Source: Dehalococcoidia bacterium
Lineage (GTDB): Bacteria; Chloroflexota; Dehalococcoidia; Lucifugimonadales; SHYT01
NCBI GenBank assembly: GCA_009693055.1
Contig: SHYA01000004.1
Span: forward strand, 1-64,000
Length of the DNA: 64,000 nt
Direction of reading: 5' to 3'
Positions 35,298-55,122 of this stretch are shown here, in pieces (position 1 is the first letter of the stretch; each line of letters starts with the position of its first letter). The translations under genes were made by a program, and so were the position numbers. The notes under the pieces were generated by a model. The model was given only the letters and a program-made list of their open reading frames with translations. It did not search any database and was not told the DNA's origin.

Positions 35298-36671
35298 CTA
35301 CGCCTCCCGGATGATGGCGGGCACCTTGACCTTGCCCACCTGGATCTCGTCCCTCAGGACCTCACCCTCCTTGGCGTCGCTGAGCGGGATGAGGGGGAAG
35401 AACTTGGAGAAGATGAGCAGGCCCAGGATCACCAGGGCGAAGGTGCCGGTCACGATGAGGATCTCCACCGCGCCGGGGCTGTACGCGCCCCAGGAGAACG
35501 TGAGTCCCTGTTTGCGCATCAGCCCTGGGATGATGATCATGAACCGTTCCAGCCACATGCCGATGTTGACGAAGATGGAGATCCAGAACATGGCGGCGAT
35601 GTTCCGGCGGACGTTCCGCAGCATGAACAGCGTCACCGGGAACACGAAGCCCGTCAGGAAGAAGAGGATGAAGAGCATGTTGAAGGGCCACTCGTACAGC
35701 TGCAAGTGGCGGAACGCAACCTCGGCCGACTCTCGGGAGTACAGGCTGAACACGATCTCAAGCACGGTGAAGAAGAACCACCCGATGCCGACGACGGCCA
35801 GGAGCTTGCCCAGGCCGTCGAAATGCTCGGGCCTGATGTACTTTTCCGCCTTGAAGGCCCAGCGCATGACGGCCATCATGGTGACCACGCCGGCTACACC
35901 GGACCAGACGGCGCCGATGACGAAGTAGGGGGCGAAGACCGTGGCGTGCCACCCTTCTACGGCGACGATCATGCCAAAGTCCCAGGATACGATGCTGTGG
36001 ACGGAGACGAAGATGGGCAGGATGATTGCGGAGAGGAGGATGCCCGCCGTCGCCTGGAGGTGCCACTGGCGCTGGGTTCCCCGCCAACCCATAGACAGGA
36101 AACCGTAGAAGGAGTGGCGCCAGCCCGTGGCCCGGTCCCTCATGATGCTGAAGTCAGGGAGCAGCGCGACGTAGACGAACAGGATGGTGCTGGTGAGGTA
36201 GGTGCCGATGGCGCTTGGGTCCCAGATGATGGGCGAGCGGATGTCGGGCCAGATCCCGCGACCAAAGTCGTACGGGAAGACCCAGTAGATGCGCCACATC
36301 CGGCCCAGGTGGACCAACGGCATCATGGCCGCGGTGCCCAGCGAGAAGATGGTGAGGACCTCCGCAGCGCGCGTCGCGGGACGCCGCCACTCCGCCTGCG
36401 TCAAGCGGAGGATGGCGGAGAGCATGATGCCCGCGTGGCTGATGCCCACCCAGAAGACGAAGTTGACCAGGAAGAAGGACCACATGATCGGCCGGTTGTA
36501 GCCGGTAACACCCAGTCCGCGGACGGCCATGTAGACCACGGCTCCAACGCCGGCGGCTACGACCAGTCCAAGGAAACTCACCGCGGCCCACCACCATAAC
36601 GGAGTGGTGAAGACCGGCCTAAGCAGGTCTCGGTTGACCTCTGTCTCTGTGAGTGGGACCCGTTCCTGCAT
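35298..36671 (-). CDS. actC: Alternative complex III subunit ActC (NrfD-like quinol-binding protein)
   Basis: A 457-residue NrfD/PsrC-type membrane protein with about ten helices. Segments FVSVHSIVSWDFGMIVAVEGWHATVFAPYF and NIGMWLERFMIIIPGL match the ActC branch rather than ActF. The HAGIMLSAILRL helix probably lines the quinol site. It couples menaquinol oxidation to electron transfer through ActB iron-sulfur clusters. Start ATG 36671 with AGGTAGG upstream. It follows the second NrfD-like gene, unlike the usual order in which actC follows actB. Confidence 0.9.
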   Translation of the reverse strand: MQERVPLTETEVNRDLLRPVFTTPLWWWAAVSFLGLVVAAGVGAVVYMAVRGLGVTGYNRPIMWSFFLVNFVFWVGISHAGIMLSAILRLTQAEWRRPATRAAEVLTIFSLGTAAMMPLVHLGRMWRIYWVFPYDFGRGIWPDIRSPIIWDPSAIGTYLTSTILFVYVALLPDFSIMRDRATGWRHSFYGFLSMGWRGTQRQWHLQATAGILLSAIILPIFVSVHSIVSWDFGMIVAVEGWHATVFAPYFVIGAVWSGVAGVVTMMAVMRWAFKAEKYIRPEHFDGLGKLLAVVGIGWFFFTVLEIVFSLYSRESAEVAFRHLQLYEWPFNMLFILFFLTGFVFPVTLFMLRNVRRNIAAMFWISIFVNIGMWLERFMIIIPGLMRKQGLTFSWGAYSPGAVEILIVTGTFALVILGLLIFSKFFPLIPLSDAKEGEVLRDEIQVGKVKVPAIIREA

Positions 36672-36712
36672 GGTTTCCTACCTGTCTTTGCCTATCGGCG
36701 CGTGCCGCCAGG

Positions 36713-38140
36713 TCACTCGGGTTTTCCTAGGACCTTGAGCTCGGTCCTATGGAACACGCGGATCCTCTGGAGGACCAGGGCCTCCTTGGCCTCCCACATG
36801 TTCATCACCGGCACAAAGCGCGACGCCAAAACGAAGAGCAAGATCGCCCCGGCAACCGCTCCAATCAGGATGAAGACATCGGCGGCGCCGGGGAAATGCG
36901 CGGTGGGCACGGGGTTTAGGACGTGGTCATTGATCTGGGCGTTGGGGACGGAGAACGAGGCCACGTACAGGCGAATGCGGTCGAACAGCGTGCCGGTCAG
37001 GATGAGGCACGCCACGACGGTCGGCCCCAGGATGCTGCGCCGTATCGGGTTCCAGATGAGCAGGAACAGAGGCAGTACGAAGTTCATCACAAAGGCCGTG
37101 ATAAAGATGTTCCGGTACTGCTCCCCGCCAAAGAACATCAGTGTGAGGACGGCGTGCTCGGCAGGGGTGCGGCCATACCAGTAGGTCATGAAGCCGGAAA
37201 ACCAGAAGTAGAACCAAAAAATGGAAAAGGGCAGCATCAGCTTGCCCAGCGCCCAGAACTGCTCAAGAAAGATGTAATCCTTCAGGCCGCCCCACGTCCG
37301 CAGCACGAACATGGTCACGACGACCGTGGCCAGCGCAGACTGGAAGGCGCTTATCGCCTGCCACGCCGGGAAGATGGAGTCCTTCCACCCAGGCACAAAG
37401 CTCTGCGCAAAGTCAGAGCTGTAGAGGAAATGGAAAAAGACGAGGTTCATAAGGTAAAGGGGCCCCAGGACGGAAAGCGTGGTCCTGAGCACCTTCCACT
37501 GGCGGTGAGTCCCCTCCCATCCCATCGAGAGTCGCGTGTACCACACCTTGCGCTGACCCCTGGAATGGTCTCGCGCCGTGGCGAAATCTGGAAGGGCGGA
37601 AACCCAGACCAGAGCCAGGCCGAGGACAGCGAGCATGATCATGGCGGCGAGCAGCCAGGCGTGCGGCGCGCCCGGCGGCCAACCCTCCCGGACCGCGTTC
37701 ACAAACCAGATGGAGTTGCGGTCAGCTGCGGAGGGGAGCACAAACAGGAGCGGGATGAGCATGAGCGTGGCGAGGACGCCGACGATGCCCCACAGCTCCG
37801 CGATGCGGGAGAGGGGCCGCCCCCAGTGGGCCCGCGCGAGACGCGGGACTACGGAGATGATGGGCGCGGCCATCGCGGTGGTGAGCAGGTAGCCGAGCGC
37901 GGCGGCAAAGTAGCCCCACGGAAGCCGGTCGTCTGTGCCGTCCGCCGCGCGGATGCTGAAGCCGACGATGCCAAGCGCCAACAGCGCGGCCAGGACAGCG
38001 GCGATCAGCCAGAACCGCCCGCTCGTCCGGAACGTCTGCGCAAGGACCTCCTCAGTCACCTGCTGATGGGTCTTGCGCAGGATGTCCGGCCGGTGGTGGT
38101 GGCCGTTACTCGTGTGTTGGGGTTGCTGTTGCTCCGGCAT
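36713..38140 (-). CDS. actF: Alternative complex III subunit ActF (second NrfD-like protein)
   Basis: A 475-residue NrfD-like protein with about ten helices. The LPDFATARD segment, SMGWEGTHRQW, and FWALGKLMLPFSIFWFYFWFSGFMTYWY fit ActF. Start at ATG 38140 (MPEQQQPQHTSNGHHHRPD), overlapping the end of the iron-sulfur gene by 35 bases; the track version adds 101 residues of shadow. The His-rich N-terminus is unusual. ActC and ActF form the pseudo-symmetrical membrane core. Confidence 0.85.
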   Translation of the reverse strand: MPEQQQPQHTSNGHHHRPDILRKTHQQVTEEVLAQTFRTSGRFWLIAAVLAALLALGIVGFSIRAADGTDDRLPWGYFAAALGYLLTTAMAAPIISVVPRLARAHWGRPLSRIAELWGIVGVLATLMLIPLLFVLPSAADRNSIWFVNAVREGWPPGAPHAWLLAAMIMLAVLGLALVWVSALPDFATARDHSRGQRKVWYTRLSMGWEGTHRQWKVLRTTLSVLGPLYLMNLVFFHFLYSSDFAQSFVPGWKDSIFPAWQAISAFQSALATVVVTMFVLRTWGGLKDYIFLEQFWALGKLMLPFSIFWFYFWFSGFMTYWYGRTPAEHAVLTLMFFGGEQYRNIFITAFVMNFVLPLFLLIWNPIRRSILGPTVVACLILTGTLFDRIRLYVASFSVPNAQINDHVLNPVPTAHFPGAADVFILIGAVAGAILLFVLASRFVPVMNMWEAKEALVLQRIRVFHRTELKVLGKPE

Positions 38141-38888
38141 CCTTGTCCACTTTCTTGAGGTAGATGACGTTGGGATCGGTGCCGATGCTGGCGAGCAGCT
38201 GGTAGTGCCGCTCGTCTTTCGCCAATTGGGCCACGCGGCTGCTCGGGTCGTTGATGTCGCCAAAGGTGAGCGTGTTGGTCGGGCAGGCGCGGGCGCAGGC
38301 CGGCGCAAACATCCCGGCCTGCGAGTCAAACTCCTTGTCCTCCAACCGCTGCTCGGACTGGACCTCCTTGCGCCCGGCCTTGCGCAGCCGCTGGACGCAG
38401 AAGGTGCACTTTTCCATGATGCCGCGGGTGCGCACCGTAACATGTGGATTGAGCTGGTTGTTCAGGCTTTCCGGCCAGGTGGGCTGCCAGAAGTTGAAGA
38501 AGCGGGCGTGGTACGGGCAGTTGTTGCCGCAGAGGCGCACGCCGATGCACCGGTTATAGACCTGGACGTTCAGCCCTTCGTTGTTGTGATAGCTGGCGTA
38601 CACGGGGCAGACCGGTTCGCAAGGCGCGTTTTCGCAGTGCTGACACATAATGGGGATGAAGCGCGCCTTGACCTTGCTCGGGTCGCCGGTCTTTTCCGCC
38701 TCCTCAATCCCTTCCCAGTAGCGCTCGATGCGGATCCACTCGTTCGCGCGGCGATGAAGGAAGCGCTCCTCAGTGTTGATGGGGATGTTGTTCTCGGCCT
38801 GGCAGGCGATTACGCAAGCCTGGCAGCCGGTGCACCTGTCCAGGTCCACTACCATCACCCACTTGTGTTGGACTCGCCTGGTGACCAT
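38106..38888 (-). CDS. Alternative complex III iron-sulfur subunit (ActB C-terminal half, ActB2)
   Basis: A 260-residue four-cluster ferredoxin-type subunit. CTGCQACVIAC (C19-C29), CQHCENAPCEPVCP, CIGVRLCGNNCPYH and the C-terminal CTFC ... CARACP groups provide cluster ligands. In the CIGVRLCGNNCP motif the second of the four Cys is Val, leaving three and matching the [3Fe-4S] site known from alternative complex III. In most described complexes this domain is fused to the molybdopterin-like domain as one ActB; here it is a separate gene. Start ATG 38888 with GGAGGGAGA upstream. Confidence 0.9.
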   Translation of the reverse strand: MVTRRVQHKWVMVVDLDRCTGCQACVIACQAENNIPINTEERFLHRRANEWIRIERYWEGIEEAEKTGDPSKVKARFIPIMCQHCENAPCEPVCPVYASYHNNEGLNVQVYNRCIGVRLCGNNCPYHARFFNFWQPTWPESLNNQLNPHVTVRTRGIMEKCTFCVQRLRKAGRKEVQSEQRLEDKEFDSQAGMFAPACARACPTNTLTFGDINDPSSRVAQLAKDERHYQLLASIGTDPNVIYLKKVDKDAGATATPTHE

Positions 38889-38922
38889 ATCTCCCTCCGA
38901 GGTCGCTCAGCTCAGCGCGTGT

Positions 38923-41187
38923 TTATGACGGTTTGGTAACTTGTATGATAGTCCCTCGCTCAAGTTCCACAGGCTGGTCAAACGTGCCTTCAAACTTCGC
39001 GATGTTCGCCCGGCGTCCGGCCTTCTTGACATGCACCTTGGTGGCGGCCCACGCGAAGGCGCCCGTGTCGCGGTCCGTGGCCGGGGCCAGGATGGAGAGC
39101 ACGTTCACGCCGCGTTCCTGCGCGTATCGCCCGTACCACTTGTGGCCCTGGCCGAAGGGGATTGAGACGACGCCGCGGGGCGCGGCGGGGTGCGGGTATG
39201 CGGGCGCTTCCAGGGTGCCTGCGGGGGAGCTGATCTCAAGGACGTCCCCCTCATGGATACCCATCTCCCGCGCTTCCACGAGGTTCATCTCAACCCATGT
39301 GCCCCATACGGCAGTCGTGATAGGGTCTGGGGTGGCTTGCAGCCAGGGGAGGTGGGCGCTCCGCCCGTCCCCGAGGGCGTTGGACACGAAGGGCACCAGG
39401 TGAAAAGCGCGGTCCGCGCCTTCGTACTGGACGTCCTGACGCTCGGTGGGCAGGGGCTTGAGCGCTGCCGCAGGCGCCCTTGAGGTGGCCTGGGGATCCC
39501 ACCACCCGCCGTTGGCCAACAGGTCGATCCAGAACTGTTCAAAGGAGGGAGCGGTGACCGAGCCGCGCCCCAGGGCGTGCAGCTTCCGGGCGCCCTCCAT
39601 GACCAGCTCCCGGTAGGTCTTCCACGGCAGCGTCTGCTGGACCTGCGGCAGCCCCTCTGCAACGGCGAGAAGCACGTCGCCAAAGCCGCGTGAACCCGCA
39701 TCGGCGGTCTGGCGGTCACCTTCCAGGAACTCTCTGACCACCGGCTGTTGAAAGCCCACCGTCTGGAAGCCCGGCCCCGGGTCTGGCACGTCGTCGCCCC
39801 ACTCTTCAAGGCCGGTATGCTCCGGAAGAATGAGGTCCGCGTAAGCGGACGTGTCGCCCAGGAAACTCGCGAAGTTCACGACAAAGGGCACCTGGCCGAG
39901 CGCCTCTTCCGGCCCCAGCGCGCGGGGCAGTCCATAGAGCGGGTCGGTGCCACGGACGACCAGAACGCGGAAGCGTCCGTCCTTCATCTGCTGGAGCAGG
40001 TCTTTCCACTGGCCCATCGGGGTTGGCCGGGCGCGGGCATCCAGCTCGGGGAGCGGCGCCTGCGGATTAAACCGGACGCCGCCGGGTTTGTTGGTGTTGC
40101 CGACGAGAAGGTTCAAGGCGTAGATAGCGTTGAGGTTCGCCACGCCGTTCACGTGGGCGCCGGCGCTCCCGCCTCCAAGCGCCAGTCCCGGCTGGTGCTC
40201 CGCGAACTCCCTCGCGATGCGCTCAATCCTCCCCGCGGGGACGCCGGCGGCCTGGCTGATCTCCTCAGGGCGGAACGCCTCAAGCGCAGCGTGGCCCCGG
40301 CCTCCCGTGAGGGCGCCGGCAGCGGCCCGGTCACCCATCCCTTCCTTGATGATGACGTAGGCCATGCTGAGAGCGAGGGCGCCTTCGTAGCCGGGCTTGA
40401 CCGGCACCCACTCGTCGGCGCTGGCGGCGGTCATGGAGAAACGCGGCTCTATTTGCACCAGCGTGCCGCGCTTGCGCCCTTTGCCTTGGCGGAACTCCCC
40501 GTACTGTCTCATGTACGCAACGGGGTTGAGCCACGTGGAGAGGAGGTCCGAGCCGAACGACAGGACATACCCCGCGTTGGCGATGTCAAAGTGGGGCAGG
40601 GCATCCTGGCCGTACAGCCGCTTGATCGTCTCGTAGAGCGCCGTTTCCTCCGTCGGCTCAAAGACCGCGTGACGGGCGCCGTAGCTCTTGGTGAACTGCT
40701 GCACCAGGTAAGCCAGGTGGCCTCGCAGCGCGTCGGTGGCGAAGAGCACGGAGCCCGGGTCGCCCTGCTGCTGCACGAGGGCGGCGGTGAGCTGGTCCAG
40801 CGCGGCGGCCCAGGAGATCGGCTCAAAGCGGGCCTGCCCCGCACTCCCGACTCTGCGCAGAGGCCCGCGCACACGGTCTGGGTGGTACAGCGCCTGGAGC
40901 GTCGCCTCGCAGCGGGCGCTGTGCTTACCGAAGTTGAGCGGGTAGGCCGGGTTGCCCTCAATCTTCTTGGCGCGCCCCTCCATCACGCGGACGATGATCC
41001 CTTCCGCCGCCCCGCACTCCCGGCACAGCGTGGCATACCACGTGTCCAGGCCGGTGACCATGTCCTCCGGGATTTGGGCCGGACTCTCAACCCGCAGCTC
41101 TTTCCGGTCAAAGGTGCACGCGGCAAAGAGCACCCCGCCCAGGCCGAGGCCCGAGAGCTTGAGGAGCTGGCGGCGCGTTAGCTCCAT
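38923..41187 (-). CDS. Alternative complex III molybdopterin-oxidoreductase-like subunit (ActB N-terminal half, ActB1)
   Basis: A 754-residue protein of the complex iron-sulfur molybdoenzyme fold. The start is ATG 41187, giving MELTRRQLLKLSGLGLGGVLFAAC, a twin-arginine signal that also looks like a lipoprotein signal. CRECGAAEGIIVRVMEGRAKKIEGNP and later PEHTGLEEWGDDVPDPGPG are typical of this family. In characterised alternative complex III this domain lacks molybdenum cofactor and is structural. The iron-sulfur half is encoded by the next gene 34 bases downstream. Confidence 0.9.
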   Translation of the reverse strand: MELTRRQLLKLSGLGLGGVLFAACTFDRKELRVESPAQIPEDMVTGLDTWYATLCRECGAAEGIIVRVMEGRAKKIEGNPAYPLNFGKHSARCEATLQALYHPDRVRGPLRRVGSAGQARFEPISWAAALDQLTAALVQQQGDPGSVLFATDALRGHLAYLVQQFTKSYGARHAVFEPTEETALYETIKRLYGQDALPHFDIANAGYVLSFGSDLLSTWLNPVAYMRQYGEFRQGKGRKRGTLVQIEPRFSMTAASADEWVPVKPGYEGALALSMAYVIIKEGMGDRAAAGALTGGRGHAALEAFRPEEISQAAGVPAGRIERIAREFAEHQPGLALGGGSAGAHVNGVANLNAIYALNLLVGNTNKPGGVRFNPQAPLPELDARARPTPMGQWKDLLQQMKDGRFRVLVVRGTDPLYGLPRALGPEEALGQVPFVVNFASFLGDTSAYADLILPEHTGLEEWGDDVPDPGPGFQTVGFQQPVVREFLEGDRQTADAGSRGFGDVLLAVAEGLPQVQQTLPWKTYRELVMEGARKLHALGRGSVTAPSFEQFWIDLLANGGWWDPQATSRAPAAALKPLPTERQDVQYEGADRAFHLVPFVSNALGDGRSAHLPWLQATPDPITTAVWGTWVEMNLVEAREMGIHEGDVLEISSPAGTLEAPAYPHPAAPRGVVSIPFGQGHKWYGRYAQERGVNVLSILAPATDRDTGAFAWAATKVHVKKAGRRANIAKFEGTFDQPVELERGTIIQVTKPS

Positions 41188-41203
41188 ACGGGCGAGCACC
41201 TTT

Positions 41204-41794
41204 CTAGTAGTGACATACAAAGCAGTCCGTCGGCGCGTTGTTCTGCCGGTGGCAGTCCACACAGTCGCCCATGCGCAGCGAGCGGACCTGTTGCACCCGT
41301 TGCATTGAGCCTACGTCCCCGTGACACGTGGCGCACACCTGAGACGGCAGGATTTCGTCGCGCCGGGTGAAGAAGGTGATGTGGGCTTCGTGCACGAACT
41401 TAACGTGGTCGGGCAGGCGGTGCACCCGGAGCCACTGGATGGGCTGTCCAGCCTGGCTGAAGGCGGCCAATTTCTGAATCTCGGGCCGGTCCTTCGCCAC
41501 GATCTTGTGGCAGAACATGCACTGTTCCACCGGCGGGATGCTGGCCATCGCCTCGGTCGCTACCGTTCGGTGGCAGAAGAGGCAGTCTACGCCGCCGATC
41601 TGCACGTGCGACGGGTGGGGGAAGGCGATGGGTTGCTCCGGCGCGCCCCGGTACCACTGCTCAATCGGCCAGAAGTAGTGCGCCAGGACCCGGGGCACGA
41701 TGGCGAGACCAATGAGCAAGAGGAGGCCGCCAGCGAGGCCGCCAGCGACAATCAGCACCAGTTTCCTGCGCTTCCGTGCCTTGAGGGTCTGCAA
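41204..41794 (-). CDS. actA: Alternative complex III pentaheme cytochrome ActA
   Basis: A 196-residue membrane-anchored cytochrome with five heme sites: CLFCH, CMFCH, CATCH, CVDCH and CFVCH. An N-terminal helix (about residues 12-35) anchors it. Five hemes and the anchor are the standard ActA pattern. It receives electrons from the ActB clusters. It ends in CFVCHY at the very C-terminus. Confidence 0.93.
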   Translation of the reverse strand: MQTLKARKRRKLVLIVAGGLAGGLLLLIGLAIVPRVLAHYFWPIEQWYRGAPEQPIAFPHPSHVQIGGVDCLFCHRTVATEAMASIPPVEQCMFCHKIVAKDRPEIQKLAAFSQAGQPIQWLRVHRLPDHVKFVHEAHITFFTRRDEILPSQVCATCHGDVGSMQRVQQVRSLRMGDCVDCHRQNNAPTDCFVCHY

Positions 41795-41850
41795 TTCTAG
41801 ACTCCTGACGAGGAATCTCTAGCCGCGTGCAAGCAAAGCCCCACAACAGA

Positions 41851-41872
41851 AGGGGCCGGAACTCCGGCCCCT
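41851..41872. repeat. 9-bp hairpin between the 97-residue gene and actA
   Basis: AGGGGCCGG and CCGGCCCCT with an AACT loop. There is no T tract, so it may lower or stabilise expression between the small membrane gene and actA rather than terminate. Confidence 0.45.
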
Positions 41873-42164
41873 ACATCCACCACCGCGTCGGATAGATTAT
41901 ACCCAGCACGCCGCGTAACTCAACCATCCTGAAGAAGAAATAGGCCGCTGTCCCGAGACAGGCGAACGCGATCCCCATCAACGCCGGGCGGATGTTCAGC
42001 GCGTTTCGTGACAGGTGCCCTGTCCCAACCAGGGACGGGATGAACGCAAGCGCCAGGAGCATGTTGGCGGCGAAGCCGATAACGAAGAGGAGGGTGCCGA
42101 AGAAGAACCGCAACAGTTCTCCCGTCTGGCTCCACTCTGCGTTCGTGATGAATGTTGGGTCCAT
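41871..42164 (-). CDS. Small membrane protein leading the alternative complex III operon
   Basis: A 97-residue protein with about two to three hydrophobic helices (LLRFFFGTLLFVIGFAANMLLALAFIPSLV and LMGIAFACLGTAAYFFFRMVEL). I do not recognise it. It lies between the operon promoter and actA, so it may be an accessory or assembly subunit of the complex. Start ATG 42164, about 57 bases downstream of the promoter -10 element. Confidence 0.7.
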   Translation of the reverse strand: MDPTFITNAEWSQTGELLRFFFGTLLFVIGFAANMLLALAFIPSLVGTGHLSRNALNIRPALMGIAFACLGTAAYFFFRMVELRGVLGIIYPTRWWM

Positions 42165-42659: not shown

Positions 42660-42693
42660 AAGGGGCGCTCGTAAGGGTGCCCCTTTTCTTTTT
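42660..42693 (+). terminator. Intrinsic terminator after the small membrane protein
   Basis: AAGGGGC (42660-42666) pairs with GCCCCTT (42679-42685), followed by TTCTTTTT. It lies 24 bases after the stop of the small gene. Confidence 0.75.
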
Positions 42694-42715: not shown

Positions 42716-43777
42716 TTAGACGGTGCTGAGCTGGGGGACCTCCACCTCCTCTTCCTCGTCCAGCAGCAGGGCGCGCCGGACACCAAGGTCCGCCAGGACC
42801 TGGAGCCCGATGATGCGATACCACAGCTTGTCTTGCGCCGACAGCGCGGCCTCTGGTCCGTCACCTAAGTGCTTGCTCACCGTGGGGGAAGGGGTGTACA
42901 ACAGCACGCCCGCGCCGAGGTCCGCGAGTTGGCGCAACTTCTCCCGCAGCCTGGCCCCGCACTGGCACACCTGGTTGTCAAAGACGTGCCCCACGACGCA
43001 TCCTCGCACAAAGGCCGCCGCCACCGGCTCGTTGGAGGCGATGTCCCCTGTGACGAGAGCGATGTGTTCGTCGGCGTCGCGCACGCATTCGTAGGCGAGG
43101 ACGGCAAACTCCCCATGCGCGGTCGGCAGGCGGGCGGAAGCGAGGCGGCGCACCACCTTCTCCCGTTGCCCGCGAAGCATCACCACCTCACTGACCTTGA
43201 CGATCTTGACGCCCAGGGTATTGGCGAGGGCTGACAGGTCCACAGGCTTGTGCATCATGTCCCCGTCGTCGGCCATGATGGCGCAGAGGACGCCAGCGGG
43301 GTAGAGGCCTGCCATCTTCACCAGGTCCACGAGGGCCTCAGGAGCCCTGAAGGTGGTGAAGACACCACCCTCGGCGTAGCGCAGAGGGAACAGGTGGCCC
43401 GGCCGGACAAAGTCGTCGGGCTTGCTTTCCGGGTCAAGGAGCGCCTTGATGGTCGCCGCGCGGTCGCGCGCCGACATGCCCGCAGAGCCTTCCCGCTTCA
43501 CATCCACGGAGACCGCGTACGGCTCGGCTTGCCCGCCTTTCGTGTTGGGAGCGATGACGGGGATTCGGAGGTGCGCCAGCCGCTCGCCGGGGATCGCGAC
43601 GCCGATGATGCCGCGGGCGTAGCGCGCCATGATGTTCACGTCCTCAGCGGTGGCCTTCTCCGCGGCAGCCGAGAGGAACGAGAGCCCCCGCACATCGTCC
43701 AGCACAATGACCGACCGGCCCTGAGCGATCTCCTCAAGGGCCTCGGTCGCAGCGCGGACGCCGTCAGCCTTCGTCAT
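42716..43777 (-). CDS. RibBA-like protein with degenerate active sites
   Basis: A 353-residue homologue of the riboflavin enzyme RibBA. The DHBP-synthase half (residues 1-200) keeps AAEKAT, PAGVLC, RPGHLFPLR and SARDRAATI. It lacks the DDEDRENEGD acidic loop (DDVRGLSFLS here), the catalytic/metal His (RAPEA instead of GHTEA) and the LCE glutamate (LCAIM). The GTP-cyclohydrolase-II half (200-353) keeps three zinc-type cysteines (GCVVGHVFDNQVCQC) but the RQEGRGIGL motif is missing (YTPSPTVSKHL). Both reactions therefore look lost. It could be a regulatory or scaffolding paralogue, or catalyse something else. Start ATG 43777. Confidence 0.85.
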   Translation of the reverse strand: MTKADGVRAATEALEEIAQGRSVIVLDDVRGLSFLSAAAEKATAEDVNIMARYARGIIGVAIPGERLAHLRIPVIAPNTKGGQAEPYAVSVDVKREGSAGMSARDRAATIKALLDPESKPDDFVRPGHLFPLRYAEGGVFTTFRAPEALVDLVKMAGLYPAGVLCAIMADDGDMMHKPVDLSALANTLGVKIVKVSEVVMLRGQREKVVRRLASARLPTAHGEFAVLAYECVRDADEHIALVTGDIASNEPVAAAFVRGCVVGHVFDNQVCQCGARLREKLRQLADLGAGVLLYTPSPTVSKHLGDGPEAALSAQDKLWYRIIGLQVLADLGVRRALLLDEEEEVEVPQLSTV

Positions 43778-43896: not shown

Positions 43897-46008
43897 TCAG
43901 GGGGCCGCTTGTTTGGGGCCTGAACCGGCGGGAACGACCCTGGACAGGAGCTGCTCCCGCAAGGCGCTGGGCGTGGTTACGGCCTGTTGGCATGTGTAGT
44001 TCTCGCAAACGTAGGCCGCCGGGAGGCCATTGACCAGGCCTTTGTCCTCCAGCAAAGGGCTCAGGCTTGCGTCGGCGGGCTGCGCCGGGTCGTAGCCGGC
44101 GACCACCTTGTGCGGAAGGAAGAGCTGATGCACCGCCCTTAGCAGACTCGCGGTGTTTGGGTGGGAAGCAGGGCCGACGAGGGCGATCTCGCGCGGCGAG
44201 TCAAGGTAAAACGCGAGGGCGCACAACCAGTGCCCGAACCCGTTGGGGTGCTGCGCCGGGCCGTGCTGGAGGGAGTTGAGCGAGGCCAGCGCCGGCTCGG
44301 CGAGCCGGCGGTCGCCGCGGCGGTCGCCGGTCAGGACCGCAAGCTTGAGCAGCGCGGACGTGGCCATCGCGGCGCCGGAGGGGATCGCGTTGTCAAACAC
44401 CTCCCTGGGTCTTACCAGCAAGAGTTCGTGGTCGCGCCCCACGTCGTAGAAGGCGGCGTCCACGTCGCTCCAGAAAAGTTCCAGCATCTCGCGGGCCAGC
44501 TGCACGGCATCGCGGAGCCAGCGGGGCTCCAGGGTTGCGGCGTGGAGGGCCAGCAGCGCGTCTACAAGAAACGCGTAGTCTTCCAGATAGCCGTTCAGCT
44601 TCGCAGCGCCGTCCCGGTACGTGCGGAGAAGCCGGCCGCGCGGCCTGAGCTTGGAGAGGAGGAACGCGGCGTTGGTGCGCGCCGCGGCGAGGTAGTCGTC
44701 CCTGCCAAGGGCAGCGCCCGCTTCCGCGAGGCTGCTGAGCGCGAGCGCGTTCCACGCGGTGAGGGCTTTTTGGTCGGTGGCCGGGGGCACGCGCCGCGCT
44801 CTCCGCGCCAGCAGACTCGCCTTCGCTTGCGCGAGGTGCGCTTCAGCCTCCTGCAAAGGTAGGCCTAGCTCCTTGGACACCCGCTCAAGCGGCGTCGCCA
44901 CCGCAAGGATGGTGTGGCCCTCCCAGTTCCCGCCTTCCCGGACACCGTAGTGGCGGAAGAGCACGTCGCGCTGCGGGCCGGAGACTGAACGCTGAAGCTC
45001 CGCGAAGTCCCAGACGTAGAACTTGCCCTCAACACCCTCGCTATCCGCGTCTTGGGAGGAGTAGAACTGCCCCTCTGCGCCGAGCATCTCGCGCAGCAGG
45101 TAGTCGAGCGTTTCCGTCACCACGCGGCGGTGCAAGGGGTGTCCGGTGAGCTGGTAGGCATGAAGGTACAGCCGGGCCAGCAGCGCGTTGTCGTACAGCA
45201 TCTTCTCAAAGTGGGGGACAAGCCACTCCTCGTCGGTGGCGTAGCGGTGGAAGCCGCCGCCGAGCTGGTCGTACATGCCGGCGCGTGCCATCCGCTCCAG
45301 GGTCAGCTCCGTCATGGCGAGGGGGAGCTGGTCGCCGGTGCGGGAGGCGTACGCAAGCAGGAACTCCCAGACCATGGGCTGCGGGAACTTGGGCGCCGGG
45401 CCAAAGCCCCCGAACTTGGAGTCAAAGGCTGAGGCGAGCACCTGGAACGCTTCGGTCAGAGTGTCCGCCGTAGGGAGCGCCGTTCCGGGGAGCGGGGGGA
45501 GCGGCTGGAGGCTCTTGCGGAGCGCGGCCGCGATGCTGTCCCCGGCCTGGGTCACCTCGGCGCGGCGGTTGGCGTAGAAGTCCGCAACCGATTTGAGCAC
45601 GCGCCGGAAACCGGGGATGCCGTGCCGATCCTCAGGGGGGAAATACGTGCCGCCAAAGAACGGCTTCTGGTCCGGGGTGAGGAACACGGTGAGCGGCCAG
45701 CCGCCGCGGCCGGTCAGCGCCTGGACCGTCTGCATGTAGATGGCGTCCAGGTCAGGCCGCTCCTCGCGGTCCACCTTGATGCTGACGAAGTGCTGGTTCA
45801 TCATGCGGGCGGTCTCCGGGTCCTCGAACGACTCGTGCTCCATGACGTGGCACCAGTGGCAGGCAGAGTACCCGATGCTCAGCAGGATGGGCTTATCCTC
45901 ACGCCGGGCGCGCTCCAGCGCCTCGTCACCCCACGGGAACCAGTCCACGGGGTTTTGGGCGTGCTGCTGCAAGTAGGGGCTCGATTCATTGATGAGGCGG
46001 TTCGGCAT
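43897..46008 (-). CDS. DUF255 thioredoxin-domain protein (YyaL/SSP411 family)
   Basis: A 703-residue protein of the YyaL/spermatogenesis-associated 20 family. The N-terminal thioredoxin-like DUF255 domain has [20 protein letters not shown], the [16 protein letters not shown] active site (CxxC near residues 50-53) and [12 protein letters not shown]. The rest is an (alpha/alpha)6-type barrel similar to mannose epimerases. Function is not established; members are widespread and associated with thiol redox or sugar metabolism. Start ATG 46008. Confidence 0.92.
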
Positions 46009-52523: not shown

Positions 52524-53786
52524 ATGGCGCGCCGCTTTTTGGCTGACACGGGACTGGCTGCTCTCCTGACGCAAGCGGAGTCCAGCTCAGACGTTGCCCC
52601 TGAAGTGCGCGTCCTCCTCAGCAAAGCGAGTGAGGGGGACGGCCTTGCCCGCGAGGAGGCGCATCTTCTTATGCGCGCTCCGGTGCGAGCCCTGCCGGCT
52701 ATCTGCCGGGCCGCGGCCTCCTTGCGTGACCGGGGCAAGGGCAAACGGGCAAGCTTCTCCCCCAAGGTATTCATCCCGCTGACGCGCCTGTGCCGCGACA
52801 CCTGCGGCTACTGCACGTTCCGCCAGGAGCCGAGCCAGTTGCCCAAGCCGTACATGACGCCGGAGGAGGTGCTGGGGGTCGCGAGGGCGGGCGCGCGTCT
52901 CGGTTGCACGGAAGCGCTGTTCACGCTCGGCGAGCGGCCCGAGCAGCGGTATCCGGAGGCCCAGCAGTGGTTGCAGCATCGTGGCTATCGCACGACCATC
53001 GAGTACCTGCGCGACATGGGCAGCCTTGTGCTCCGCGAGACCGGGCTGCTTCCACACGTCAACCCCGGAACGATGAGCCGGCACGAGATGGAGTCTCTCC
53101 GCGAGGTCAGCGTCTCCATGGGGCTGATGCTGGAGAACCTGAGTCCGCGCCTCTACGCGCCGGGCGGTCCCCACGAGCACGCGCCGAGCAAGCGACCCAC
53201 AGTCCGGCTGAAGACGCTGGAGTTGGCCGGCCAGTTGCGCGTGCCGTTCACGACCGGCATCCTTATCGGCATCGGCGAAACGCCGGAGGAACGCGTGGAC
53301 TCGCTCTTCGCCATCCGGGACCTTCACGCCGAGTACGGGCATGTGCAAGAGGTGATCGTCCAGAATTTCCGCGCCAAGCCGGACACTCCCATGGCCGGGT
53401 GCTCGGAGCCGGATGGCGTTGACATGATGCGCACGCTGGCGATAACGCGCATCGTGCTCGGCCCGGCGATGAACATCCAAGCGCCTCCCAACCTCACCCC
53501 ATCGGAGTTTCCGCTCTTTCTCCACGCGGGGCTGAACGACTGGGGCGGCGTCTCTCCCCTGACACCGGACTTCGTCAATCCCGAGGCGCCGTGGCCGCAT
53601 CTCGCCGACCTGGAGCGGGGCACACGAGGCCAGGGATTTGAGCTGGTGCCCCGCCTGCCTATCTACCCGGAGTACCTGGAGCCTGGGCGAGGTTTTGTTG
53701 ACCCTTCTGTCGCGGAGCGCGCCGCTGAGCTGGCTGGAGTGGACGGATACGTTGCGGGAGGGATAGCGCGCTATGTCACCAAGTAA
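52524..53786 (+). CDS. cofG: 7,8-didemethyl-8-hydroxy-5-deazariboflavin synthase subunit CofG
   Basis: A 420-residue radical SAM enzyme that, with CofH, makes the deazaflavin Fo of coenzyme F420. The radical SAM motif CRDTCGYC is near residue 90. An N-terminal helical extension of about 70 residues precedes it. VNPGTMS, TTGILIGIGETPEERVDSL and IQAPPNLTP are typical CofG segments. GGGGAG precedes the ATG at 52524. Its end overlaps cofH by 14 bases. Confidence 0.94.
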   Translation: MARRFLADTGLAALLTQAESSSDVAPEVRVLLSKASEGDGLAREEAHLLMRAPVRALPAICRAAASLRDRGKGKRASFSPKVFIPLTRLCRDTCGYCTFRQEPSQLPKPYMTPEEVLGVARAGARLGCTEALFTLGERPEQRYPEAQQWLQHRGYRTTIEYLRDMGSLVLRETGLLPHVNPGTMSRHEMESLREVSVSMGLMLENLSPRLYAPGGPHEHAPSKRPTVRLKTLELAGQLRVPFTTGILIGIGETPEERVDSLFAIRDLHAEYGHVQEVIVQNFRAKPDTPMAGCSEPDGVDMMRTLAITRIVLGPAMNIQAPPNLTPSEFPLFLHAGLNDWGGVSPLTPDFVNPEAPWPHLADLERGTRGQGFELVPRLPIYPEYLEPGRGFVDPSVAERAAELAGVDGYVAGGIARYVTK

Positions 53787-55122
53787 ACAGCCACGGAATG
53801 GGACTGAGCAAGGAGACCGGCCCGAGTCCCTCACGGCGCTGCTCACGGCCATGAAGCCGGAAGTCGCCTCGGCGCTGGAGGGCGCGCTGGCGGGCGAGGA
53901 CCTCTCCGCAGACCAGGCGGTTGCCCTGCTGGAGGGCGGCCCCTCCGAGACGATGGCCACACTCCTGGTGGCCGATGAGCTGCGTCGGCGCACCGTTGGG
54001 GATGTAGTCACCTACGTGGTCAACCGGAACGTCAACTTCACAAACGTCTGCATCAAGGGCTGCGGCTTCTGCGCGTTCAGCCGCGACCACCGCGAGGAGG
54101 AGGGCTACTTCCTGCCCACTGAAGAGATCCTCCGCCGCGTCCGCGAGGCCTGGGGCCTTGGCGCGACGGAGGTGTGCGTGCAAGCGGGCCTGCCGCCCAA
54201 GATGGAGGGCGATCTGTACATCAAGCTCTGCCGCGCCATCAAGGAGGCCGTGCCGGGCATCCACGTCCACGGCTTCTCGCCCGAGGAGGTGCTGTACGGC
54301 GCGATCCGCTCCGGCTGCACGGTGCGCGAATACCTCACCGAGCTGAAAGCGGCGGGAGTGGGGAGCTTGCCGGGGACGTCCGCGGAGGTGCTTGACCAGG
54401 AGCTCCGGGACCTCATCTCGCCGGGGCGCATCACCGTCCGGCAGTGGACTGAGGTCATTACGACGGCGCATGCACTTGGGATTCCGACCACGTCCACCGT
54501 GATGTTCGGGCACGTGGAAACGAGCCGCCACATCGCTGAGCACCTGGCGCTCATCCGCGGCATCCAGCAGGAGACGGGCGGCTTCACCGAGTTTGTGCCG
54601 CTCAGTTTCGTCCATACCGAGGCTCCGATGTTCCGGCACGGCACGGTTGCCACGGTCCGGCCGGGCGCCACGGCGCAAGAGGTGCTGAAGGTGCACGCCG
54701 TTTCGCGGATCATGCTGAACAACTGGATTCCCAACGTGCAAGCCTCGTGGGTCAAGGAGGGGCCTCGCCTGGCCCAGCTGCTGCTGAGCGCCGGCGTCAA
54801 CGACCTGGGCGGTACGCTAATCAACGAGAGCATCTCTACCAGCGCGGGCGCGCCATTTGGGCAACTGGTTCGGCCGCGGGAGTTCCGCCAGATGGTGCGC
54901 GCCGTGGGCAGGGTCCCGGCCGAGCGCACAACGCTCTACAAGCTCCGGCGCGTCTTTGACGACGGGGACGACCCCGTTGAACCGCTGGACACCGTGGGCG
55001 AGCGGCCGGAGGAGCGATTCGGCTCATACCAGCGCCTTGCCCGCTCCAACCAGTTCCGCTACACCCACCCCGCGGGCGCCGCACGGCAGAGCGCCGGCAA
55101 CCCCGGCGGCCCCCAGGACTAG
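53773..55122 (+). CDS. cofH: Fo synthase subunit CofH (5-amino-6-ribitylaminouracil-tyrosine transferase)
   Basis: A 449-residue radical SAM enzyme. The cluster motif CIKGCGFC is near residue 94, followed by AFSRD, EVCVQAGLPPKMEGDLY, HGFSPEEVLYG, LPGTSAEVL and TSTVMFGHVE, as in CofH. It joins a tyrosine-derived fragment to 5-amino-6-ribitylaminouracil, a riboflavin precursor. A Pro/Arg-rich C-terminal tail of about 40 residues is extra. Start ATG 53773 inside the end of cofG. Confidence 0.94.
   Translation: MSPSKQPRNGTEQGDRPESLTALLTAMKPEVASALEGALAGEDLSADQAVALLEGGPSETMATLLVADELRRRTVGDVVTYVVNRNVNFTNVCIKGCGFCAFSRDHREEEGYFLPTEEILRRVREAWGLGATEVCVQAGLPPKMEGDLYIKLCRAIKEAVPGIHVHGFSPEEVLYGAIRSGCTVREYLTELKAAGVGSLPGTSAEVLDQELRDLISPGRITVRQWTEVITTAHALGIPTTSTVMFGHVETSRHIAEHLALIRGIQQETGGFTEFVPLSFVHTEAPMFRHGTVATVRPGATAQEVLKVHAVSRIMLNNWIPNVQASWVKEGPRLAQLLLSAGVNDLGGTLINESISTSAGAPFGQLVRPREFRQMVRAVGRVPAERTTLYKLRRVFDDGDDPVEPLDTVGERPEERFGSYQRLARSNQFRYTHPAGAARQSAGNPGGPQD

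Follow-up and report, generated by a model that had tools for sequence, protein, structure and literature searches.

A RibBA-like gene at a syntenic locus

The DNA analysed here is a 64,000-nucleotide stretch of a Dehalococcoidia contig (the window). On its minus strand, positions 42716..43777 encode a RibBA-like protein of 353 amino acids, referred to below as the paralogue, which its reading frame, Pfam matches and alignment suggest to be a double pseudoenzyme. The frame is open over all 353 codons with no internal stops, and its extent and length had been given correctly in an earlier note on this DNA. Both Pfam and Foldseek showed the RibB-to-RibA domain order of bifunctional RibBA: residues 1-204 (43166..43777, minus strand) correspond to a RibB (DHBP synthase) fold domain (Pfam DHBP_synthase, residues 12-199, E 2.1e-50), and residues 205-353 (42719..43165, minus strand) correspond to a RibA (GTP cyclohydrolase II, GCHII) fold domain (Pfam GTP_cyclohydro2, residues 211-341, E 1e-17). 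The RibA half contains the zinc-type motif GCVVGHVFDNQVCQCG (residues 259-274, with Cys260, Cys271 and Cys273; 42956..43003, minus strand) and is shortened in two places, through a deletion that follows the GTP loop and through loss of the C-terminal tail. The paralogue scored far under the curated cut-offs of all NCBIfam RibBA models, including the RibBA equivalog PRK09311 (265.6 bits vs a cut-off of 569).

An AlphaFold2 model built with 12 sequences reached a mean pLDDT of 83 and a pTM of 0.82. The best full-length Foldseek matches were Mtb RibBA (4i14) and Acinetobacter baumannii RibBX (6mnz), and the N-terminal half also retrieved RibB structures. On the basis of the alignment, the model and these matches, both the RibB and the RibA folds are predicted to be retained, in agreement with the proposal of the earlier note that the folds and three zinc-type cysteines remain; the three GCHII zinc cysteines are invariant among the paralogues described below.

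The immediate upstream neighbour on the same strand, separated by a 119-base gap, encodes a Thioredox_DsbH/DUF255 (YyaL-type) protein (43897..46008, minus strand). On the other side, a terminator-like hairpin with a T tail (42660..42685, plus strand; weak evidence) may separate the RibBA-like gene from the convergent plus-strand side. Further along, a cluster of cytochrome c7-type, molybdopterin-type, Fe-S and NrfD genes (35298-42164, minus strand) resembles alternative complex III. The two other genomes of the same family that were examined (G001 and G002; three genera in all) carry orthologues at the same locus, with 61% and 53% identity, respectively. Approximately 20 kb around the paralogue is syntenic in all three genomes, in the order NHL-repeat protein, DUF255/DsbH protein, RibBA-like gene and the cytochrome c/NrfD cluster, and the DUF255 gene is the immediate same-strand upstream neighbour in each of them.

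Loss of both catalytic sites

RibB residues were numbered after Vibrio cholerae RibB, with loops and residues taken from PMC5228156, and 38 Dehalococcoidia RibBAs served as the canonical reference set. Eight residues that are invariant in this set (Arg38, Glu39, Asn40, Glu41, Asp43, Arg151, Thr155 and Glu175) are replaced in all three paralogues. The RENEGD acidic loop has become V/F-R/H-G-L-S/A-F/Y with a two-residue deletion, Arg151 is Thr or Val, Thr155 is Pro or Glu, Glu175 is Ala, and the lid residue Thr108 is absent from the paralogue. The PGH and SARDR motifs, which lie in partner-facing loops, and Glu147 are retained. In the RibA half, the GTP loop RQEGRGIGL is replaced by PxxxV(S/N)(K/R)HL in the paralogues, the catalytic Arg of the DLRxYG motif is Trp319, and LLTNNPKK reads LLDEEEE. 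The catalytic roles of Arg151, Thr155 and Glu175 were assumed from general knowledge of RibB, and those of the RibA residues were presumed from E. coli GTP cyclohydrolase II.

The earlier note had listed changes in the acidic loop, the metal His and the Glu of the DHBP synthase site and the absence of RQEGRGIGL. All of these changes are real, and Arg151, Thr155, the catalytic Arg and LLTNNPKK are additional losses; alignment showed these losses in all three orthologues. The metal His is indeed Ala in all three (His154), but this change is less telling than the others because the same position is Gln (GQTEA for GHTEA) in 21 of the 38 otherwise canonical RibBAs, and judged from these sequences it is by itself non-diagnostic of inactivity. 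RENEGD is intact in such GQTEA proteins (for example, L008, L009, L015, L017 and L018). As the pattern of loss is common to the two orthologues, it reflects neither chance nor sequencing error. Sequence comparison thus confirmed the paralogue as a RibBA homologue in which both catalytic sites appear to be lost.

We considered whether the protein might still catalyse one of the two classical reactions with relocated catalytic residues. The retention of PGH, SARDR, Glu147 and the zinc cysteines would fit such an enzyme, as would the tolerance of the metal-His position to change in many canonical relatives. This is nevertheless highly improbable: all three orthologues have lost the acidic loop together with Arg151, Thr155 and Glu175 in the RibB half, and both the catalytic Arg and the entire GTP loop in the RibA half. 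A canonical RibBA is also present in the same genome.

A canonical RibBA copy and purifying selection

The canonical RibBA, which the earlier note had suggested looking for, was found on another contig (C7), where it is flanked by ribE and ribH and ribD lies upstream (neighbour names were read from the sequences), so that the paralogue is located outside the rib cluster. G001 and G002 likewise have one canonical and one degenerate RibBA each. The paralogue shares about 36-41% identity with canonical RibBA (its own C7 copy and Mtb RibBA 4i14). Neither ribBA copy has an FMN or other Rfam riboswitch nearby, and the surroundings of the paralogue gave no match to any Rfam element.

For the closest pair of paralogues (window gene and G001), the NG86 method gave a dN/dS of 0.315/1.157 = 0.27, a value itself limited by a dS near saturation; canonical RibBA gave 0.21 and the neighbour gene 0.23. 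The other pairs had lower ratios, but with saturated dS. In the tree, the paralogues group together as a single long-stemmed clade, and an origin of the duplication within the family was neither demonstrated nor rejected (p-AU 0.31). Decay into a functionless pseudogene would be consistent with the faster evolution of the protein (53-61% identity between family members vs 72-74% for canonical RibBAs) and with the missing C-terminal tail. Against this reading, which we consider extremely unlikely and rejected, stand the open frame without internal stops, substitutions common to three genera at one syntenic locus, and a dN/dS well below 1 and close to that of the neighbour gene. These comparisons support the view that the paralogue is a real, conserved gene under purifying selection. 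The assertion that it is not a random pseudogene therefore stands, given the canonical copy elsewhere, the orthologues in two more genera, the purifying selection and the predicted fold. With its lost catalytic residues, purifying selection and an active-looking paralogue in the same genome, the protein has the features of a putative conserved pseudoenzyme.

Distribution of the double loss

When a profile built from the three sequences was searched against 393 genomes of the class, the window gene scored 673 bits and sequences outside the family at most 334, and no further orthologue-level score was found. The best outside-family matches had canonical RibBA length, and those that were read carry canonical motifs. 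A GTDB contig scan of 84,980 species genomes yielded, besides the two family orthologues, only RibBAs in which the RibB motif is intact. Second RibBA copies elsewhere in the class had an intact RibB in those read (L085 left out). Three of these copies (L086, L088 and L089; family f42, genus g114) have intact RibB and zinc cysteines and an altered GTP loop (YQQGRGVGV, YQPGRAVGL or YQQGRAICV for RQEGRGIGL) and are possibly a separate variant.

Among 301 genomes of the phylum, low-scoring RibB domains were found in two families, f133 and f147, and in the proteins read there (L095, L096, L097, L100, L101 and L103) the RibB half is dead and the RibA half canonical. For most of the genomes concerned, this protein is the sole match to the RibB domain, which makes their source of DHBP puzzling. 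Single-site loss thus recurs in Chloroflexota, whereas double loss was seen only in the family of the paralogue in this non-exhaustive sample. The same residues are altered in G001 and G002, and the opinion of the earlier note that loss of both sites is unusual agrees with its occurrence in only these three of the genomes sampled.

Possible roles of the paralogue

In the RibB homodimer, one subunit contributes loops 1-3 and the other subunit loops 4-5 to each active site (PMC5228156). We scored positions that are at least 90% conserved in the 38 canonical RibBAs and divided them into own-site and partner-facing loops after the same study; the own-site set was widened by adding residues 150-156, which carry His154, and by lengthening the loops a few residues at their ends. 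At own-site positions the paralogues retain 7 of 27, vs 10 of 13 at partner-facing positions (Fisher p 0.005, for three sequences and a comparison chosen post hoc), the latter being not clearly above the 19 of 32 kept at other conserved RibB positions. The block of residues 100-140, into which the two partner-facing loops largely fall, is as well conserved among the paralogues (0.66) as among the three canonical copies (0.63). The loss of the own-site loops together with the retention of the loops lent to a partner fits a protein for which the fold and the dimer face matter but catalysis of its own does not, and suggests that it forms a mixed dimer with canonical RibBA.

We therefore favour, tentatively and at somewhat less than even probability, a reading in which the paralogue has lost both activities and acts as a non-catalytic partner of canonical RibBA, most likely by pairing with it. 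The paralogue would fold with zinc and pair with the canonical RibBA that its own cell encodes; the mixed dimer would contain one live and one dead DHBP synthase site as well as an altered RibA half structured by zinc, and could determine the flux through, or the stability of, the initial steps of riboflavin synthesis. This pathway consumes the two precursors made by RibBA in a fixed 2:1 ratio. A more specific form of the proposal, which we regard as doubtful, is a trans-acting pseudo-subunit whose retained residues from loops 4 and 5, the PGH histidine among them, complete the live site and thereby tune the ratio of the two precursors. A precedent is the X domain of Shewanella RibBX, which lacks GCHII activity yet regulates its own RibB (PMC10012899). 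Against a partner role, we counted that the gene lies beside a thioredoxin-domain gene and a complex III-like cluster rather than in the rib cluster, that the partner-facing loops are structurally important too, and that Thr108, a lid residue, is missing.

The same neighbourhood could instead suggest neofunctionalization, in which the inherited scaffold would bind or convert a ligand unrelated to riboflavin, perhaps in a redox or zinc task with the thioredoxin-domain neighbour. Residues invariant only among the paralogues (Glu85, Arg104, Arg144, His264, His303 and Trp319) lie at or near the old pockets, the zinc-type cysteines are retained, and the DsbH/DUF255 gene adjoins the paralogue in all three genomes. 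However, the whole locus is syntenic, so this adjacency is not independent evidence. The old-site positions are also conserved no better than the domain average: the own-site loops are 0.40 invariant among the paralogues against 0.44 for the domain, and the former GTP loop is their least conserved part (0.23 invariant vs 0.88 in the canonical copies). This low conservation would speak against a new catalytic site in either place, and we consider neofunctionalization unlikely overall, although credible.

The earlier note had proposed that the paralogue may regulate flavin or Fo flux. Fo is made from a riboflavin-pathway intermediate (PMC11302143), and cofG and cofH, for F420 synthesis, lie in the same window (52524-55122, plus strand), about 9 kb from the paralogue. 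Regulation of flux into the deazaflavin (Fo/F420) branch nevertheless appears very unlikely and was rejected, because the distributions of cofG and the paralogue do not match: no cofG match was found in G002 (91% complete), which has the paralogue, and cofG occurs in nine further relatives that lack the paralogue. The lack of an Rfam element near the paralogue also counts against it. A regulatory role as such is plausible for a conserved and apparently doubly inactivated homologue; its Fo-specific form is unsupported.

Comparison with known systems

A conserved, fully inactive RibBA beside an active copy would offer a natural system for studying control by a pseudoenzyme, and it bears on the way in which the two halves of RibBA are kept in balance by bacteria that lack an FMN riboswitch. 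Homology-based annotation pipelines may call the paralogue a second RibBA, which is corrected here. A literature search, with most subscription papers outside its scope, found no RibBA homologue that has lost both sites and is kept by selection. One candidate precedent for a repurposed RibBA, from a Flavophos phosphonate paper, was dropped as RibB and RibBA are ordinary assay enzymes there. What is new is thus a putative RibBA-derived pseudoenzyme with both sites lost, whereas single-site losses are already known from RibBX and AtRIBA2/AtRIBA3.

Canonical RibBA (the C7 copy and 4i14) shares the fold, domain order and zinc cysteines of the paralogue but has both sets of catalytic residues and the C-terminal tail. 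The RibBX proteins of Shewanella oneidensis, Bradyrhizobium and Aeromonas, and of A. baumannii (6mnz), have the same RibB plus RibA architecture with an inactive RibA-like half; their RibB is active and their zinc-binding residues are reported missing (PMC10012899). As the RibB site of the paralogue is dead and its RibA-like half keeps the zinc cysteines, assignment to known RibBX was rejected. The f133 and f147 proteins of the same phylum have likewise lost RibB own-site residues, but their RibA half is canonical (RQEGRGIGL, LLTNNPKK/R). Arabidopsis AtRIBA2 and AtRIBA3 are also paralogues of a bifunctional RIBA that have lost catalytic residues and are unable to replace RIBA; each of them has lost one activity (PMC3509567), whereas the paralogue appears to have lost both in one protein.
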